A DNA stretch of 64,000 nucleotides, from NCBI RefSeq assembly GCF_001997295.1, contig NZ_CP019605.1:2790001-2854000 (forward strand). The letters are read 5' to 3'. The translations under genes and the position numbers were made by a program. Of this stretch, positions 2,084-60,612 are shown piece by piece. Under the pieces are notes generated by a model that was given only the letters and a program-made list of their open reading frames with translations, was not told the DNA's origin and made no database searches. Source of the DNA: Tessaracoccus flavus (lineage in GTDB: Bacteria > Actinomycetota > Actinomycetes > Propionibacteriales > Propionibacteriaceae). Each line of letters begins with the position of its first letter. The stretch's first letter is position 1.

Positions 2084-3694
2084 ATGGCCGCCCCCATCCA
2101 TCCCCGACTGCTGCAGCGGGCACGAGCCACCCGCTGGTTTCTCCTGGCCACCGTCGTGGTCGGGCTGGCCACCGCGGCGCTCATCATCGCCCAGGCGCGG
2201 CTGATCGCCGACTGGGTCACTGAGGCGTTCGCGACCCGATCATTCCCTCCCGGCTGGCAGACGGCGGCCCTCATGCTGGCGCTGGTGTTCGCGGGGCGGG
2301 CGGCGCTGACCTGGCTCGGCTCGCTCCTGGCCCACCGCAGCGCGGCGGCGGTGAAGTCGACGCTGCGGCGAGACGTGCTGGCCGCCCGGCTCGCGACCCC
2401 GATCGGCGCCGCGTCGTCGGCGTCGCTCGTGCGCACCGTCACCGCCGGCCTCGACGCCCTCGACGGCTACTTCTCGAAGTACCTCCCCCAGCTCGGCCTG
2501 GCGGCGACCGTGCCCCTCCTCGTGGGCGGCACCATCCTGCTCACCGACTGGCAATCGGCCCTCATCATCGCGTTCACACTCCCGCTCATCCCCCTCTTCA
2601 TGGCCCTCATCGGCTGGACGACCGAAAAGGCCACCCGGCAGAGCTTCGGGGTGGCCGACCGGCTGGCCCGGCACTTCGGCGACCTCATCGCGGGCCTGCC
2701 CACCCTCCAGGCGTTCGCTCGGGCCAGGGCCCAGCGCCACGGGGTCGAGCTCAACGAAGGGCAGTACCGCGAAGCGACGATGAAGACCCTGTACATCTCC
2801 TTCCTGTCCGCGTTCGCCCTCGAACTGCTGGCGTCGTTGTCGGTGGCGGTCGTGGCGGTAACGGTCGGCTTCCGCCTCGTTTACGGCGACGTCGACTTCA
2901 CCACCGCCCTCTTCGTCCTCATCCTGGCGCCGGAGGCTTTCCTGCCCGTCCGGCAGGTCGGCGTTCACTTCCACGATTCCGCCGACGGCGTCGCCGCCGC
3001 CGACGCCGCGTTCGAGGTGATCGACGCAGCCCCCTCCCCCGGGGGCACCGGTCCCGTGCCCGCAGGGGCCCTCCGGCTCGAGGACGTGCGCTACACGTAC
3101 CCCGGCGCTGACGCCCCCGCCGTCGACGGGCTGAGCCTCGCCGTCGAGCCGGGCGCGGTGGTCGCGCTCAGCGGGCATTCCGGGGGCGGGAAGTCGACCG
3201 CCCTGGCGATCGCCATGGGCTTCCTCGTGCCTGAATCCGGCCGCGTGACTGTGGGCGGCGAGGATCTCGCTGGCCTGGATCTCACCGACTGGCGCCGGCA
3301 GGTCGCCTGGGTGGCCCAGGAGCCCGGGATGCTCAACGGGACCGTCGCCGACAACGTCGCGCTCGGGCATCCCGAAGCCGCTGCCGCCGACATCTCCCGG
3401 GCGCTCGCTGACGCCGGCGCCGACTTCGGCCCCGACAAGCACGTCGGCGACGACGGCGAGGGACTGTCCGCCGGCGAGCGACGGCGCGTCGCCCTCGCCC
3501 GTGCGCTCGTGCGCATCAGGGTGGGCGGGGCGCGGTTCCTCATCCTCGACGAGCCCACAGCCGGCCTCGACGCCGACACCGAGGCCCGCGTGATCGCAGC
3601 GGTCCGCGCTACGGGCGCCGGCGCACTCGTGGTCAGTCACCGGCCCGCCGTGCTCGCCGCGGCCGACCACGTCGTCGAGGTGGTGACGGCATGA
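2084..3694 (+). CDS. cydD: ABC exporter subunit CydD
   Basis: Half-transporter of the heterodimeric CydDC thiol/haem exporter needed to mature cytochrome bd. 536 residues: about six membrane helices in residues 1-310, then an ABC ATPase domain. Walker A is GHSGGGKST, the signature is LSAGERRRVALARA and Walker B is FLILDEPTAGLD. The ATG at 2084 comes only 24 bases after the upstream repeat and has no strong ribosome site. Its stop overlaps the start of cydC (ATGA at 3691-3694), so the two halves are translationally coupled. Confidence 0.93.
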   Translation: MAAPIHPRLLQRARATRWFLLATVVVGLATAALIIAQARLIADWVTEAFATRSFPPGWQTAALMLALVFAGRAALTWLGSLLAHRSAAAVKSTLRRDVLAARLATPIGAASSASLVRTVTAGLDALDGYFSKYLPQLGLAATVPLLVGGTILLTDWQSALIIAFTLPLIPLFMALIGWTTEKATRQSFGVADRLARHFGDLIAGLPTLQAFARARAQRHGVELNEGQYREATMKTLYISFLSAFALELLASLSVAVVAVTVGFRLVYGDVDFTTALFVLILAPEAFLPVRQVGVHFHDSADGVAAADAAFEVIDAAPSPGGTGPVPAGALRLEDVRYTYPGADAPAVDGLSLAVEPGAVVALSGHSGGGKSTALAIAMGFLVPESGRVTVGGEDLAGLDLTDWRRQVAWVAQEPGMLNGTVADNVALGHPEAAAADISRALADAGADFGPDKHVGDDGEGLSAGERRRVALARALVRIRVGGARFLILDEPTAGLDADTEARVIAAVRATGAGALVVSHRPAVLAAADHVVEVVTA

Positions 3695-6717: not shown

Positions 6718-7002
6718 GCGCCAACCGCCGACGACGAACGCCAACGGTCGGACCCTGACGCCAACGGTCTGACCGGAACGCCAACCGACTGGGAGAAACG
6801 CCAACGAGAAAGCGCCAAACGCCAACGGCGCCACGACTACGCCGACGAGATCCCTGGACGCTGGCGATATTTCGCGGGCGTCGCTGATTCTGGTCGGCGA
6901 ACGCTCCTCACCGTTGGCGTTCCGGTCAGACCGTTGGCGAACCGGCGAAACCGTTGGCGTTACCCCAGACCTGTTGGCGTTTCGGTCGAACCGTTGGCGT
7001 TG
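6718..7002. repeat. 20-bp-period convergent array, copy 1
   Basis: This 285-base array lies between the convergent ends of the GT4 gene and fumC. The left arm has six ACGCCAAC units starting at 6718, 6738, 6758, 6778, 6798 and 6819. The right arm has five CCGTTGGCGTT units starting at 6911, 6931, 6951, 6971 and 6991. The centre (about 6829-6910) contains TTTCGCGGGCGTCGCTGA. The ten bases between cores differ from unit to unit. No credible gene lies here, and the long open frames crossing it have no family features. Confidence 0.95.
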
Positions 7003-8595: not shown

Positions 8596-10785
8596 TCAGC
8601 CCGCGGACTTGCCGTGGTTGATGGACCTGAAACCCCTCAGCCGGAGACTGTTCAGCACCACGAAGACACTGGAGAAAGCCATCGCCGCGCCCGCGATCAT
8701 CGGGGTCAGCATCCCCAGCGCCGCCAGCGGGATGGCCGCCGTGTTGTAGGCGAACGCCCACACGAGGTTCTGCTTGATGGTGCTGAGCGTTGCGCGCGAC
8801 AGCCGCACCGCATCGACGGCGGCGGCGAGGTCGTGTCGCATGAGCGTGATGTCGCCGGCCGCGATGGCCGCGTCGGTGCCGGTGCCCATGGCGATGCCGA
8901 GGTCGGCCTGCGCGATCGCGGCCGCGTCGTTGACGCCGTCGCCCACCATCGCCACCTGCCGACCAGCAGCCTGCAACTCCTTGATGACCTCAACCTTGCC
9001 CTGGGGCGTCACCCCGGCGCGCACGTCGTCGATGCCCACCTCTGCGGCCACGGCGCGCGCCGTCTTCTCGTTGTCGCCGCTCAGGAGCACCGGGGTGATC
9101 CCAAGGCTCTTGAACTGCGCGATGGCGGCCGCTGCGGTGTCCTTGACGGTGTCCGCGACGATGATGCGGCCCAGCAGTCGCTCCTCCGTCGCCACCTCGA
9201 CGACGCTGCCCACGAGGTCGCCCGCCCACTGCGGCGCGGAATGCCCGAGCTCGGCCATGAAGGCGGGTGACCCGGCGTAGATGGTGCGTCCGTGGACCAC
9301 ACCCTTCACGCCGCGGCCGGGGACGTTCTGGAAGTCGACGACCGGGGCCGGACGCTCGACCTCGGCCACGACGGCCTGGGCGATCGGATGCTCCGACGCC
9401 GCCTCCACCGCCGCCGCGACGGCCAGCAGTTCGGCCTCGGAGACGCCGTCGGCCGGCTGGACAGCGGCCACGGCCATCTGGCCCGTGGTGAGAGTGCCGG
9501 TCTTGTCGAACACGACGGTCTGGACGCGCCGCGCCCGCTCCAGCACCTGAGGCCCGCGGATGACAGTGCCGAGCTGCGCGCCGCGCCCCGTTCCCACCAT
9601 GAGCGCCGACGGCGTGGCCAGGCCGAGCGCGCAGGGGCAGGCGATGATGAGGACGGAAATGGCTGCAGAAAGCGCCGCCGTCGTGCCGTTGCCGACGACC
9701 AGGTGCACCACCAGCGTCACAGCCGCGATGACCAGCACGACCGGCACGAACACGCCGGAGACCTTGTCCGCCAGTCGCTGGACCTCAGCCTTGCCGGTCT
9801 GCGCCTCCTCGACCATGTGCGCGATCCGCGCAAGCTGCGACGCCTCCCCGACGGCGGTGGCCCGCACGACGAGCCGGCCGGTCGTGTTCACCGAGCCGCC
9901 GACGACGTCGGAGCCGGGTTCGACCTCCACCGGGAGCGATTCGCCGGTCATGACGGAGGCGTCGACGGCGGAGCGCCCCTCGACCACCTCGCCGTCGGCG
10001 GCCACCTTCTCGCCGGGCCTGACGACGATGAGGTCGCCGGCGCGCAGCTGCTTGGCGTCCACCCGGCGCTCGTCGCCGTCGACCAGAAGCGTCGCCTGCT
10101 TCGCCCCCACCTCGAGCAGAGCCCGCAGGGCGGCACCGGACTCCGTCTTGGCTCGCGCTTCGATGTAGCGGCCGAGCAGCAGGAAGGAGATGATCGTGAC
10201 GGCTGCCTCGAAGTAGATGAAGCCGAGCGCGTCCTGGGATCCGAGGTTGAACTCGAACTCGTGCTTCATGCCGATCATGCCGGCGTGGCCGAACACCATC
10301 GCGTACACCGACCAGCCGTAGGCGGTCAGCGTGCCGAGCGTGACGAGCGTGTCCATGGTCGTGGCGCCATGGCGCAGGTTGGTCCACGTGGCGCGGTGGA
10401 AGCTTCGCCCCAGCCAGAGCACCACGACCGTCGACAGCACGAGCGCGGCCCACTGCCAACCGGGGAACTGGAGCGCGGGAATCATGGACACGAGGACGAC
10501 GGGGATGCTGAGCGCAAACGACCAGAGCACGCGCGGCTTGAGTTCGGCGGCCTCGTCGGCCTTGGGCGCCTCCGGCTGGGGCACCGTGGCGCCGTAGCCC
10601 GTCTTCTCCACCACTTCGATGAGCATCGCAGGGTCGACCCCGTCGGGTGCCTCGACCGTCGCGCGCTCAGTGGAGTAGTTGACCGTGGCGATGATGCCGT
10701 CGACCTTGTTGAGCTTCTTCTCAATGCGGGCCGCGCACGAGGCGCAGGTCATGCCTTGAATGTCGAGTTGAATCTGATTGGTCAT
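8596..10785 (-). CDS. copA: Copper-exporting P1B-type ATPase
   Basis: Pumps Cu(I) out of the cell using ATP. 729 residues: one N-terminal heavy-metal domain with GMTCASC (residues ~10-16), eight expected membrane helices, the membrane CPC metal site in IACPCALGLATPS (~residue 380), the phosphorylated Asp in FDKTGTLTTG (~425), the SEHPIAQAV motif of the P1B nucleotide domain, and GDGVNDAAAIAQADLGIA near the C-terminus. The start is preceded by GAGGAGGGCC on the coding strand. It is last in the operon csoR-copZ-copA, about 100 bases after copZ, and is followed by the terminator at 8440-8487. Confidence 0.97.
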   Translation of the reverse strand: MTNQIQLDIQGMTCASCAARIEKKLNKVDGIIATVNYSTERATVEAPDGVDPAMLIEVVEKTGYGATVPQPEAPKADEAAELKPRVLWSFALSIPVVLVSMIPALQFPGWQWAALVLSTVVVLWLGRSFHRATWTNLRHGATTMDTLVTLGTLTAYGWSVYAMVFGHAGMIGMKHEFEFNLGSQDALGFIYFEAAVTIISFLLLGRYIEARAKTESGAALRALLEVGAKQATLLVDGDERRVDAKQLRAGDLIVVRPGEKVAADGEVVEGRSAVDASVMTGESLPVEVEPGSDVVGGSVNTTGRLVVRATAVGEASQLARIAHMVEEAQTGKAEVQRLADKVSGVFVPVVLVIAAVTLVVHLVVGNGTTAALSAAISVLIIACPCALGLATPSALMVGTGRGAQLGTVIRGPQVLERARRVQTVVFDKTGTLTTGQMAVAAVQPADGVSEAELLAVAAAVEAASEHPIAQAVVAEVERPAPVVDFQNVPGRGVKGVVHGRTIYAGSPAFMAELGHSAPQWAGDLVGSVVEVATEERLLGRIIVADTVKDTAAAAIAQFKSLGITPVLLSGDNEKTARAVAAEVGIDDVRAGVTPQGKVEVIKELQAAGRQVAMVGDGVNDAAAIAQADLGIAMGTGTDAAIAAGDITLMRHDLAAAVDAVRLSRATLSTIKQNLVWAFAYNTAAIPLAALGMLTPMIAGAAMAFSSVFVVLNSLRLRGFRSINHGKSAG

Positions 10786-13387: not shown

Positions 13388-13710
13388 ACGCCAACCGACT
13401 GCCCCCAACGCCAGCCGACGACCTCAAACGCCAACGGACAGCGGCCAACGCCGACGGATATCGCGAGACGCCCGCAGGACTCAGCGACGCCCGCGAGATC
13501 TCGCGGGCGTCGCTGAGTCTTGTCGGCGGTTGGCCTTGTCTGTTGGCGTTGCCAATTAACCGTTGGCGTTTCTGTCTACCCGTTGGCGTTTCCAGATAAC
13601 CGTTGGCGTTGCTGTCTACCCGTTGGCGTTTCCAGATAACCGTTGGCGCTGCTGTCTACCCGTTGGCGTCGGCGCTTCCCTCTTGGCGTTTGGTTCTGTT
13701 GGTTGGCGGT
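13388..13710. repeat. 20-bp-period convergent array, copy 2, with a perfect 42-bp palindrome
   Basis: The array lies between convergent dnaB and arsR. Left arm: four ACGCC(A/G)AC units at 13388, 13408, 13428 and 13448. Right arm: eight units with core GTTGGCGTT at exact 20-base spacing (13540 to 13680), then a looser one near 13700. Bases 13478-13519 form a perfect 42-base palindrome centred on AGATCT. The variable halves of the right arm alternate (two types, 40-base higher-order period). The remaining 13711-13832 shows nothing I can assign. Confidence 0.96.
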
Positions 13711-29936: not shown

Positions 29937-30140
29937 ACGCCAACAGATAATCGTCCGTGCCAGCGATACTCAGTGAAGCCAGCGATATTTCGCGGGCATC
30001 GCTGGTTTCCGTCGGCGAGGACCCTTCAGGGTTGGCGTTCGGCCCTCCCCGTTGGCGTTTGGCCCTCCCCGTTGGCGTCGGGCGCTCAACGTTGGCGTTT
30101 CCACCTCCCCGTTGGCGTTCGACCCTCGCCGTTGGCGTCG
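29937..30140. repeat. 20-bp-period convergent array, copy 3
   Basis: One left-arm unit (ACGCCAACA at 29937), a centre with CAGCGATATTTCGCGGGCATCGCTGG around 29970-30005, and six right-arm GTTGGCGT cores at 30031, 30051, 30071, 30091, 30111 and 30131. It sits between the DUF4126 start and the 3' end of the lipid kinase (both minus strand); a short GGCGAC triplet repeat follows before the kinase stop. Confidence 0.93.
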
Positions 30141-34947: not shown

Positions 34948-34992
34948 GGTCCCTGAGCCCGCCACTAGGTCCCTGAGCTTGTCGAAGGGTTA
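34948..34992. repeat. REP unit, locus 6 (short)
   Basis: Two GGTCCCTGAGC units, the second complete (CCCTGAGCTTGTCGAAGGG). No core and no inverse partner. It is followed directly by array copy 4. Confidence 0.8.
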
Positions 34993-35036: not shown

Positions 35037-35200
35037 ACGCCAACCGAGAACGGCCAACGCCAATCGCTATACCGTGACGCCCCCGAGGACCATCGACGCC
35101 CCCGAGATCTCGCGGGCGTCGCTGAATCTCGTTGGCGAGTTCCCTTGACAGTTGGCGTTTGCGGCTGCCGGTTGGCGTTTCTGCTGTCGCGGTGGCGTCT
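35037..35200. repeat. 20-bp-period convergent array, copy 4
   Basis: Left arm ACGCCAAYCG at 35037 and 35057; centre with GAGATCTCGCGGGCGTCGCTGA at about 35103-35124; right-arm cores at 35131, 35151, 35171 and 35191, all exactly 20 apart. It lies between hppA and the DUF4282 gene (both plus strand). The gap 35201-35337 contains no other recognisable element apart from the AAGGAG ribosome site. Confidence 0.93.
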
Positions 35201-41560: not shown

Positions 41561-41744
41561 ACGCCAATCGACGCGGCGTTACGCCAGCGAGAGTCGTCGT
41601 CGCCCGTGACACATCAGGGGCGACGATGGATGTCGGGGGCGTTCGGCGTTGTCAGTTGGCATTTGGCCGTGACCGTTGGCGTTTGGCCGTGACCGTTGGC
41701 GTTTGGCCCGCACCGTTGGCGTTCCGGCCGGTCGGTTGGCGTCG
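41561..41744. repeat. 20-bp-period convergent array, copy 5 (alternative centre)
   Basis: Left arm ACGCCAR at 41561 and 41581. Centre of a second type: ACATCAGGGGCGACG at ~41611-41625. Right-arm GTTGGC cores at 41655, 41675, 41695, 41715 and 41735, exactly 20 apart. The last unit ends two to three bases from the ponA stop codon (41747-41749). Confidence 0.93.
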
Positions 41745-45018: not shown

Positions 45019-45180
45019 ACGCCAACAGTCCCAGCCAAACGCCAACAGGAATCGCGCTTCGCCACCGGAATCCATCGAGGCCCCCGATACATCAGGGGCG
45101 GCGCTGATTGTCGTCGGCCTTCCGGCTTCGTCGTTGGCGTTCAGTCGGGACCGTTGGCGTTGCGGTCGCACGGTTGGCGT
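45019..45180. repeat. 20-bp-period convergent array, copy 6 (alternative centre)
   Basis: ACGCCAACA at 45019 and 45039; centre ACATCAGGGGCGGCG at ~45089-45103, the second centre type shared with copy 5; right cores at 45133, 45153 and 45173. It lies between the divergent mscS and cca starts, so here it must share space with two promoters. Confidence 0.92.
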
Positions 45181-60369: not shown

Positions 60370-60612
60370 ACGCCAACGCGAGGTGGAGACGCCAACGCGA
60401 AGGTGGAAACGCCAACCAACAAGTCCCCACGCCGCCGAGACTCAGCGAGGCCTGTGAGATCTCGCGGGCGTCGCTGAGTCTCGCGGGCGTCTCGGGATTT
60501 CGATTGGCGTTCCGCCTCGTCTGTTGGCGTTCGCTCTTGCCGGTTGGCGTTGAATCCTGTCCGTTGGCGTTCCGCGTTTCCGGTTGGCGTTCAGTCCTGC
60601 CGGTTGGCGTCA
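60370..60612. repeat. 20-bp-period convergent array, copy 7
   Basis: Left arm ACGCCAAC at 60370, 60389 and 60409; centre with ACTCAGCGAGGC and GAGATCTCGCGGGCGTCGCTGAGTCT (about 60440-60482), followed by a partial duplication of TCGCGGGCGTC; right-arm units at 60501, 60521, 60541, 60561, 60581 and 60601. The last unit overlaps the stop codon of the YhgE/Pip gene (60610-60612). Confidence 0.93.

Follow-up and report, generated by a model that had tools for sequence, protein, structure and literature searches.

An array of short repeated cores lies 3' of a dnaB-type helicase gene at positions 13388..13710 of the window, the 64,000-nucleotide stretch of Tessaracoccus flavus DNA that was analysed. 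The genome is a single contig of 3,222,890 bases, of which the window covers 2,790,001-2,854,000. The array has no strand and is organized around a dyad between 13498 and 13499. Its left arm (13388..13457, minus strand) carries ACGCCAACGG-type cores at 13388, 13408, 13428, and 13448. The palindromic centre (13467..13530, no strand) includes the diverged innermost units. The right arm (13540..13669, plus strand) consists of seven CCGTTGGCGT-type cores with a 20-bp period, followed by weaker units up to 13710.

A preliminary description of this DNA had placed seven such loci in the window, and pattern matching found every one of them where it had been reported. None of the other six has a strand. 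Array 1 (6718..7001, dyad between 6869 and 6870) separates a plus-strand glycosyltransferase gene from a convergent minus-strand fumarase-family gene; the locus under study is array 2. Array 3 (29937..30139, dyad between 29987 and 29988) is flanked by two minus-strand genes and lies near the 3' end of a diacylglycerol-kinase-type gene, and array 4 (35037..35199, dyad between 35107 and 35108) is 3' of a proton-pumping pyrophosphatase gene. Array 5 (41561..41743, dyad between 41611 and 41612) also has minus-strand genes on both sides, the 3' end of the right one being 4 bp away. Array 6 (45019..45180, dyad between 45089 and 45090), which sits between a minus-strand mechanosensitive channel gene and a divergent plus-strand gene of the poly(A) polymerase/CCA family, is the exception to placement at 3' ends. 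Array 7 (60370..60611, dyad between 60459 and 60460) adjoins the 3' end of a minus-strand YhgE/Pip family gene. In arrays 3 and 5 (at 29937 and 41561), the left arm is short and shows one or two recognizable outer units.

The cores and their spacing are far from chance expectation. With at most one mismatch, CCGTTGGCGT matches the window 61 times, as compared to a mean of 8.16 and a maximum of 17 in 100 shuffles. Pairs of GTTGGCGT-type cores number 43 at a distance of 20 and 29 at a distance of 40, with 0-3 at each distance from 10 to 19 and from 21 to 39; block-shuffled windows contain on average 0.02 pairs at distance 20 and at most one (n=50). An array consists of a palindromic centre flanked by two arms, whose GTTGGCGT-type cores face outward and share one polarity within an arm. 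From the dyad outward, 60 arms have the consensus TMTCGCGGGCGTCGCTGAGTCTCGTCGGCGT followed by GTTGGCGTT units. The central palindrome is part of the array and contains two diverged innermost units that share its dyad. When the best core matches within set ranges are taken, the innermost GGCG lies at +8 from the dyad in 58 of the 60 arms, the first step, to the neighbouring unit, is 19 bp in 55 of 60, the second step is 20 bp in 57 of 60, and the third is 20 bp in 50 of the 56 arms that have a third unit. The 20-base spacing that had been described as holding almost without exception is therefore correct for the outer steps, whereas the innermost step is 19 bp. Despite their varying spacers, 28 array centres align without gaps across 104 columns, two of 30 centres having been omitted as weak.

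Conserved cores separated by variable spacers, as first described, are borne out in the larger sample. Among 288 spacers from 48 arrays, identity is 0.56 within an arm, 0.42 between opposite arms, and only 0.415 between different arrays. Spacers are weakly biased toward T at unit position 9 (85%) and C at position 19 (81%). Matches of at least 11 of 12 bases occur in 34 of 445 spacer pairs within an arm, 49 of 40,450 between arrays, and 1 of 433 between opposite arms. The highest likeness within an arm is as expected if each arm grows alone by 20-bp duplication. The sole opposite-arm match is in array 1 of the window, where one spacer is identical in both arms, and we take it as chance or rare exchange. 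An ordinary tandem repeat (VNTR) is ruled out by the low between-array spacer identity alongside conserved cores and by the two-armed dyad in place of a single direction.

The arrays form a genome-wide family and are not confined to the window, as both a whole-genome core-pair search and sampled stretches demonstrate. Genome-wide, core pairs 20 bp apart (at most one mismatch) number 245 in the forward and 233 in the reverse orientation; a reversed control pattern gives 0 and 0. Arrays were sampled in 864 kb, comprising the window and 40 evenly placed 20-kb stretches, in which a chain detector returned 50 candidates. Thirty chains were kept: 28 with at least two units in each arm, plus window arrays 3 and 5. 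Of the 20 dropped chains, five were looked at: three had arisen by chance within genes, and those at 174064 and 978498 are genuine arrays in which one arm is short. The 800 kb outside the window thus holds 23 to 25 arrays, corresponding to approximately 93-101 per genome. A model of the array centre based on sequence only, termed R1, yielded at least 79 distinct array places after its 150 best matches were reduced by hand. Window array 5 is absent from these 79, so the list is incomplete. The early estimate of hundreds of copies per genome consequently holds for units, of which there are several hundred, but not for arrays, of which there are roughly 100.

Gene context was assigned with our own gene caller (778 genes, 86.5% coding). 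Twelve of the 30 arrays lie in convergent gaps, 14 in tandem gaps, and 4 in divergent gaps, as compared to 48, 150, and 83 of the 281 gaps longer than 100 bp, an excess in convergent gaps with P = 0.0025. In tandem gaps, 12 of 14 arrays are nearer the upstream stop codon than the next start (P = 0.0065). This bias toward 3' ends suggests a boundary between transcription units. Replacement of ordinary terminator-like stems by arrays was also considered and set aside, as the stem comparison gave no clear effect. Stems of at least 10 outside the array are present at 23% of 22 array-bearing convergent gene ends versus 28% of 92 others, with two array-bearing convergent ends not scorable, and at 0 of 14 array-bearing tandem ends versus 14.5% of 207 others.

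The distribution of the arrays among relatives was examined with the R1 model, which gives matches at E values of 0.01 or less in 25 of the 39 genomes of the genus, its own included. Inspected by eye, the best locus in each of the 24 other genomes is array-like in 12 and coding-like, with no ladder and E values of 0.001 or more, in the remaining 12. Array-like loci are accordingly present in 12 of 38 other genomes of the genus (G036, G029, G020, G033, G014, G019, G006, G038, G022, G012, G024, and G010), and arrays are scarce or missing in most species of the genus. G036, whose assembly is fragmented, has just one array, and the 6-kb contig that carries it may be a stray. The core word differs between species and is uniform within a genome; words in relatives include CGTTGGCGTC, GTTGGCGC, GGCTGGCGTC, and GGTGGCGTC. 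One further genome, G026, has a CGCTGGTG ladder that the R1 model missed; at 9310-9770 of stretch L116, these 20-bp units lie inside a higher-order repeat of 109 bp that also contains inverted ACCAGCG units.

In the wider family, an exact three-unit TGGCG ladder occurs in 18 of 157 genomes, most with 1-6 matches, some of which are ordinary tandem repeats. In G128, which belongs to another genus, forward matches number 43 and reverse matches 24 (control 0); its two-armed arrays of CACGTGGCGCA have reversed polarity relative to the dyad. In G112, from a third genus, CTGCGCCA ladders lie on a dyad. That TGGCG is common to G128 and G112 is partly because both were found with the TGGCG pattern. In the sister species G020 and G033 and in G128, the step geometry is kept while the word differs. 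The steps across the dyad are 20, 19 | 24 | 19, 20 in G020 and G033 and 20, 20, 19 | 23 | 19, 20, 20 in G128. In G020 and G033, the inner step is 19 in 22 of 22 cases and the outer step is 20 in 11 of 12 (11 arrays, including some ortholog pairs); in the two arrays of G128, these counts are 4 of 4 and 9 of 9.

Searches for ladders of period 19 to 23 had low power. None was found in 16 stretches, each 20 kb long at most, that had not been picked for a known ladder, and among 18 further stretches the detector reported ladders in G009, G025, and G026, the last picked for its ladder. The ladder in G009 (L106, about 3380-3490) is a one-sided TCAGCGAAACGATGGG ladder of period 23 directly after a gene, and is possibly the same sort of element with another step. 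G025 (L115, 9088-9162) has a one-sided intergenic AGGTGTTGTCAGT ladder of period 21. In G175, from another genus of the family, long 20-bp GACGAGCCGCC ladders surround a repeated GGGGCAGTTGCCCC-type module (L299, 6180-6700). Outside the genus, the exact four-unit core pattern was found in four stretches of genome contigs, in a search that may leave out the genome studied here, and by eye these are tandem repeats with conserved spacers. The exact three-unit pattern has no match in viral contigs. A 20-bp tandem repeat of ACGCCAACAGGTGTGAGGCA that begins at a small palindrome in Pseudonocardia parietis (L171, 1270-1440) was kept out of the family because its spacers are conserved.

Array sites turn over between species. 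Within 420 bp after dnaB or fumC, the detector found no ladder in 29 relatives for each gene, three rows in each set being shorter than 420 bp; by eye, G022 has a short fragment of its own array type after fumC, under the detector limit. In the gap between trxB and trxA, G033 and G020 share an array that is absent from the other 28 genomes compared, including the one studied here. The TrxB proteins of G033 and G020 are 99% identical, and these two sister species share further orthologous arrays, two near 370 kb and one near 771 kb of G020. Across the four orthologous arrays, cores have accumulated 0 substitutions in 160 positions (0 of 40 in each) and spacers 15 in 200 (6, 2, 6, and 1 of 50), a contrast with a Fisher P of 1.9e-4 for four arrays in one species pair. 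Flanks differ at 95 of 995 positions, a count inflated by misaligned ends. In this small sample of four arrays from one species pair, the cores are conserved in place, as purifying selection on cores and not on spacers would have it. The presence and absence of arrays among species, taken with the substitution counts from G020 and G033, show that arrays come and go and that cores are held where both sisters have the array.

These data indicate that each array is probably a protein-binding stretch of DNA, whatever its role. An array of proteins on double-stranded DNA would be expected to show steps of about two helical turns, conserved cores with unconserved spacers, indel-free geometry, a dyad, and changes that go unanswered across that dyad, and all of these are seen. 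An early aside that a 20-bp phase suits a protein on one face of the DNA is likewise supported by the near-fixed 19/20-bp steps, which would bring bound units to nearly the same side of the helix. In the proposed mechanism, the central palindrome would set the dyad, and units of a predicted sequence-specific DNA-binding protein, the presumed reader of the cores, would each occupy one core along both arms, starting from the dyad, with a first step of 19 bp and then one unit every 20 bp, or about two helical turns. Binding is predicted to be cooperative, proceeding outward from the dyad, and arms may lengthen via 20-bp tandem duplication. At gene ends, the resulting protein block could act as a two-way transcription boundary or roadblock. 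With this boundary role included, we give a double-stranded docking array for such a protein slightly less than an even chance. Several observations weigh against this reading: 4 of 30 arrays are divergent, window array 6 among them; array sites are not common to relatives, a patchiness that would be odd for a housekeeping boundary; and arrays neither replace nor accompany other gene-end hairpins clearly.

The same protein-bound array could instead serve chromosome organization or division timing, in the manner of a nucleoid-occlusion site or domain anchor. We regard this role as rather unlikely, as we do its corollary that 3' ends are used only since promoters must stay free. When the genome is divided into quarters by distance from dnaA (2.946 Mb), the at least 79 listed arrays fall as 26, 24, 21, and 8, with P = 8e-4 for the farthest quarter among the arrays listed. 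This apparent depletion leaves room for a role in chromosome organization. Passages on Noc (NBS) and SlmA (SBS) describe tens of palindromic sites for each protein, fewer of them near the terminus (PMC4726725). As those passages present them, the likeness lies in many palindromic sites that, to judge from the at least 79 arrays listed here, may be scarcer near the terminus; however, theirs are single palindromes on the 14-bp scale, whereas the arrays are long, phased, at gene ends, and variable in word between species. The depletion itself must be read with the knowledge that the 79 places derive from the best 150 matches of the centre model and that core and accessory gene content also shifts toward the terminus.

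An improbable alternative is that the arrays are miniature mobile or selfish repeats, in which a transposase supplied in trans binds the cores and the arrays spread and grow for their own sake. Core words that are species-specific and uniform per genome would fit such spread, as would the patchy distribution and the presence or absence of arrays between relatives, including one G033 array inside a stretch of approximately 342 bp that is missing from G020. However, in decaying copies cores and spacers would be lost at equal rates, which is not what the orthologs show; moreover, the low count of between-array spacer matches given above makes recent copying not evident. A search limited to the Y1 family (PF01797), that of RAYT-type transposases, found none in the 39 genomes of the genus, and its positive control was found in 5 of 14 named genomes. 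A mobile origin may still account for how arrays arise, and it leaves the kept cores unexplained.

A structured RNA or DNA cruciform, in which the arms pair core to core or the centre at least forms a hairpin, is very improbable. The proposal that the arms fold into a ladder of ten paired and ten unpaired bases is not supported, given unequal arms, unrelated opposite-arm spacers, and the lack of covariation across the dyad outside the centre. The two arms have equal numbers of units in only 6 of 28 arrays (rank correlation 0.23, P = 0.23), and opposite-arm spacers are no more alike than the between-array background, well below the within-arm value. Covariation across the whole 50-pair dyad is at the shuffle mean, its score being reached by 284 of 500 shuffles. 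The same is seen position by position, where in-register versus cross-array identities are 0.388/0.391, 0.370/0.383, and 0.337/0.346 for three spacers and 0.615/0.659, 0.893/0.900, and 0.667/0.666 for three cores. The folding energy of array 2 is very low (-185.2 kcal/mol, z -13.2), as dyad symmetry alone would make it. The placement of most arrays downstream of stop codons would also suit a transcribed structure. The central 21 pairs differ from the rest: their covariation score is reached by 3 of 500 shuffles, a modest excess, and paired cells make up 82.3% versus 79.6% in shuffles (reached by 0 of 500), other measures being reached by 13 to 59 of 500, although related sequences can exceed shuffles without structure. 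This excess makes a hairpin or cruciform at the centre alone possible, and the modest covariation of the central stem counts against a pure protein array.

The view that the arrays belong to no catalogued or described family agrees with our searches. Rfam gives 0 matches in the whole window at gathering scores, and no description of this design was found in open-licence full-text literature, a scope that most subscription papers fall outside. Transposon ends such as those of Tn7 (TnsB) and Mu carry several inverted protein sites at intervals of about 20-22 bp. The arrays likewise have inverted units spaced by about 20 bp, but they have no visible cargo, their arms meet at a palindrome, and there are roughly a hundred chromosomal copies. 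REP/BIME elements are described, in the relevant parts of two papers, as interspersed extragenic palindromic repeats of about a hundred or more copies and as proposed protein-binding sites with roles in chromosome organization and transcription termination (PMC2817692, PMC3733652). On those accounts, the arrays resemble them as approximately 100 interspersed extragenic palindromic elements; in contrast, BIMEs alternate REP orientation, whereas an array has two arms of uniform polarity facing away from the dyad, with 10-bp cores every 20 bp. REPs have GTAG/CGTC tags and are RAYT-associated, and the array centre contains GCGTC, position within the palindrome aside. REP/BIME elements mobilized by a RAYT are rejected, as no Y1 transposase was found in the 39 genomes of the genus and the cores have one polarity per arm. 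A 2025 REP survey includes Acidipropionibacterium thoenii in a table, and its relevant passages make no mention of a ladder (PMC12306157). The TAACTGA arrays of Beggiatoaceae and others are many intergenic sets of short direct repeats, thought in the passages concerned to bind a regulator (PMC4679880). As characterized there, they lack a dyad and most of them immediately precede start codons, whereas the present arrays are two-armed and lie mostly after stop codons.

Returning to the protein-docking array, its behaviour across genera allows a more specific and tentative proposal, which is possible though doubtful. The arrays may be a nucleoprotein system locked in geometry and drifting in word, in which a predicted protein nucleates on the dyad and extends in 19-then-20-bp steps at gene ends, while the recognition word co-evolves in each species and in another genus has even reversed its polarity. 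If true, bacteria would here possess a boundary or insulator element that relies on a protein array and not on an RNA hairpin; interspersed bacterial palindromic repeats have mostly been read as mobile elements or RNA hairpins. The sister-species orthologs separate the kept parts (core words, dyad, and 19/20-bp steps) from the drifting spacers, pointing to DNA-protein geometry. With a geometry that is constant while the word changes, the search for the binder has a direct starting point, as does the question of how gene ends are marked, or the chromosome organized, in these bacteria.

A second dispersed palindromic repeat, CCCTGAGCTTGTCGAAGGG, is also present in the window, with 11 matches at up to three mismatches (8 exact) as compared to 0.02 expected. 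The matches are at 1976, 17983, 18004, 25703, 25785, 31595, 34971, 54645, 54933, 55099, and 60321, and the repeat adjoins some arrays, for example, at 34971 and 60321.
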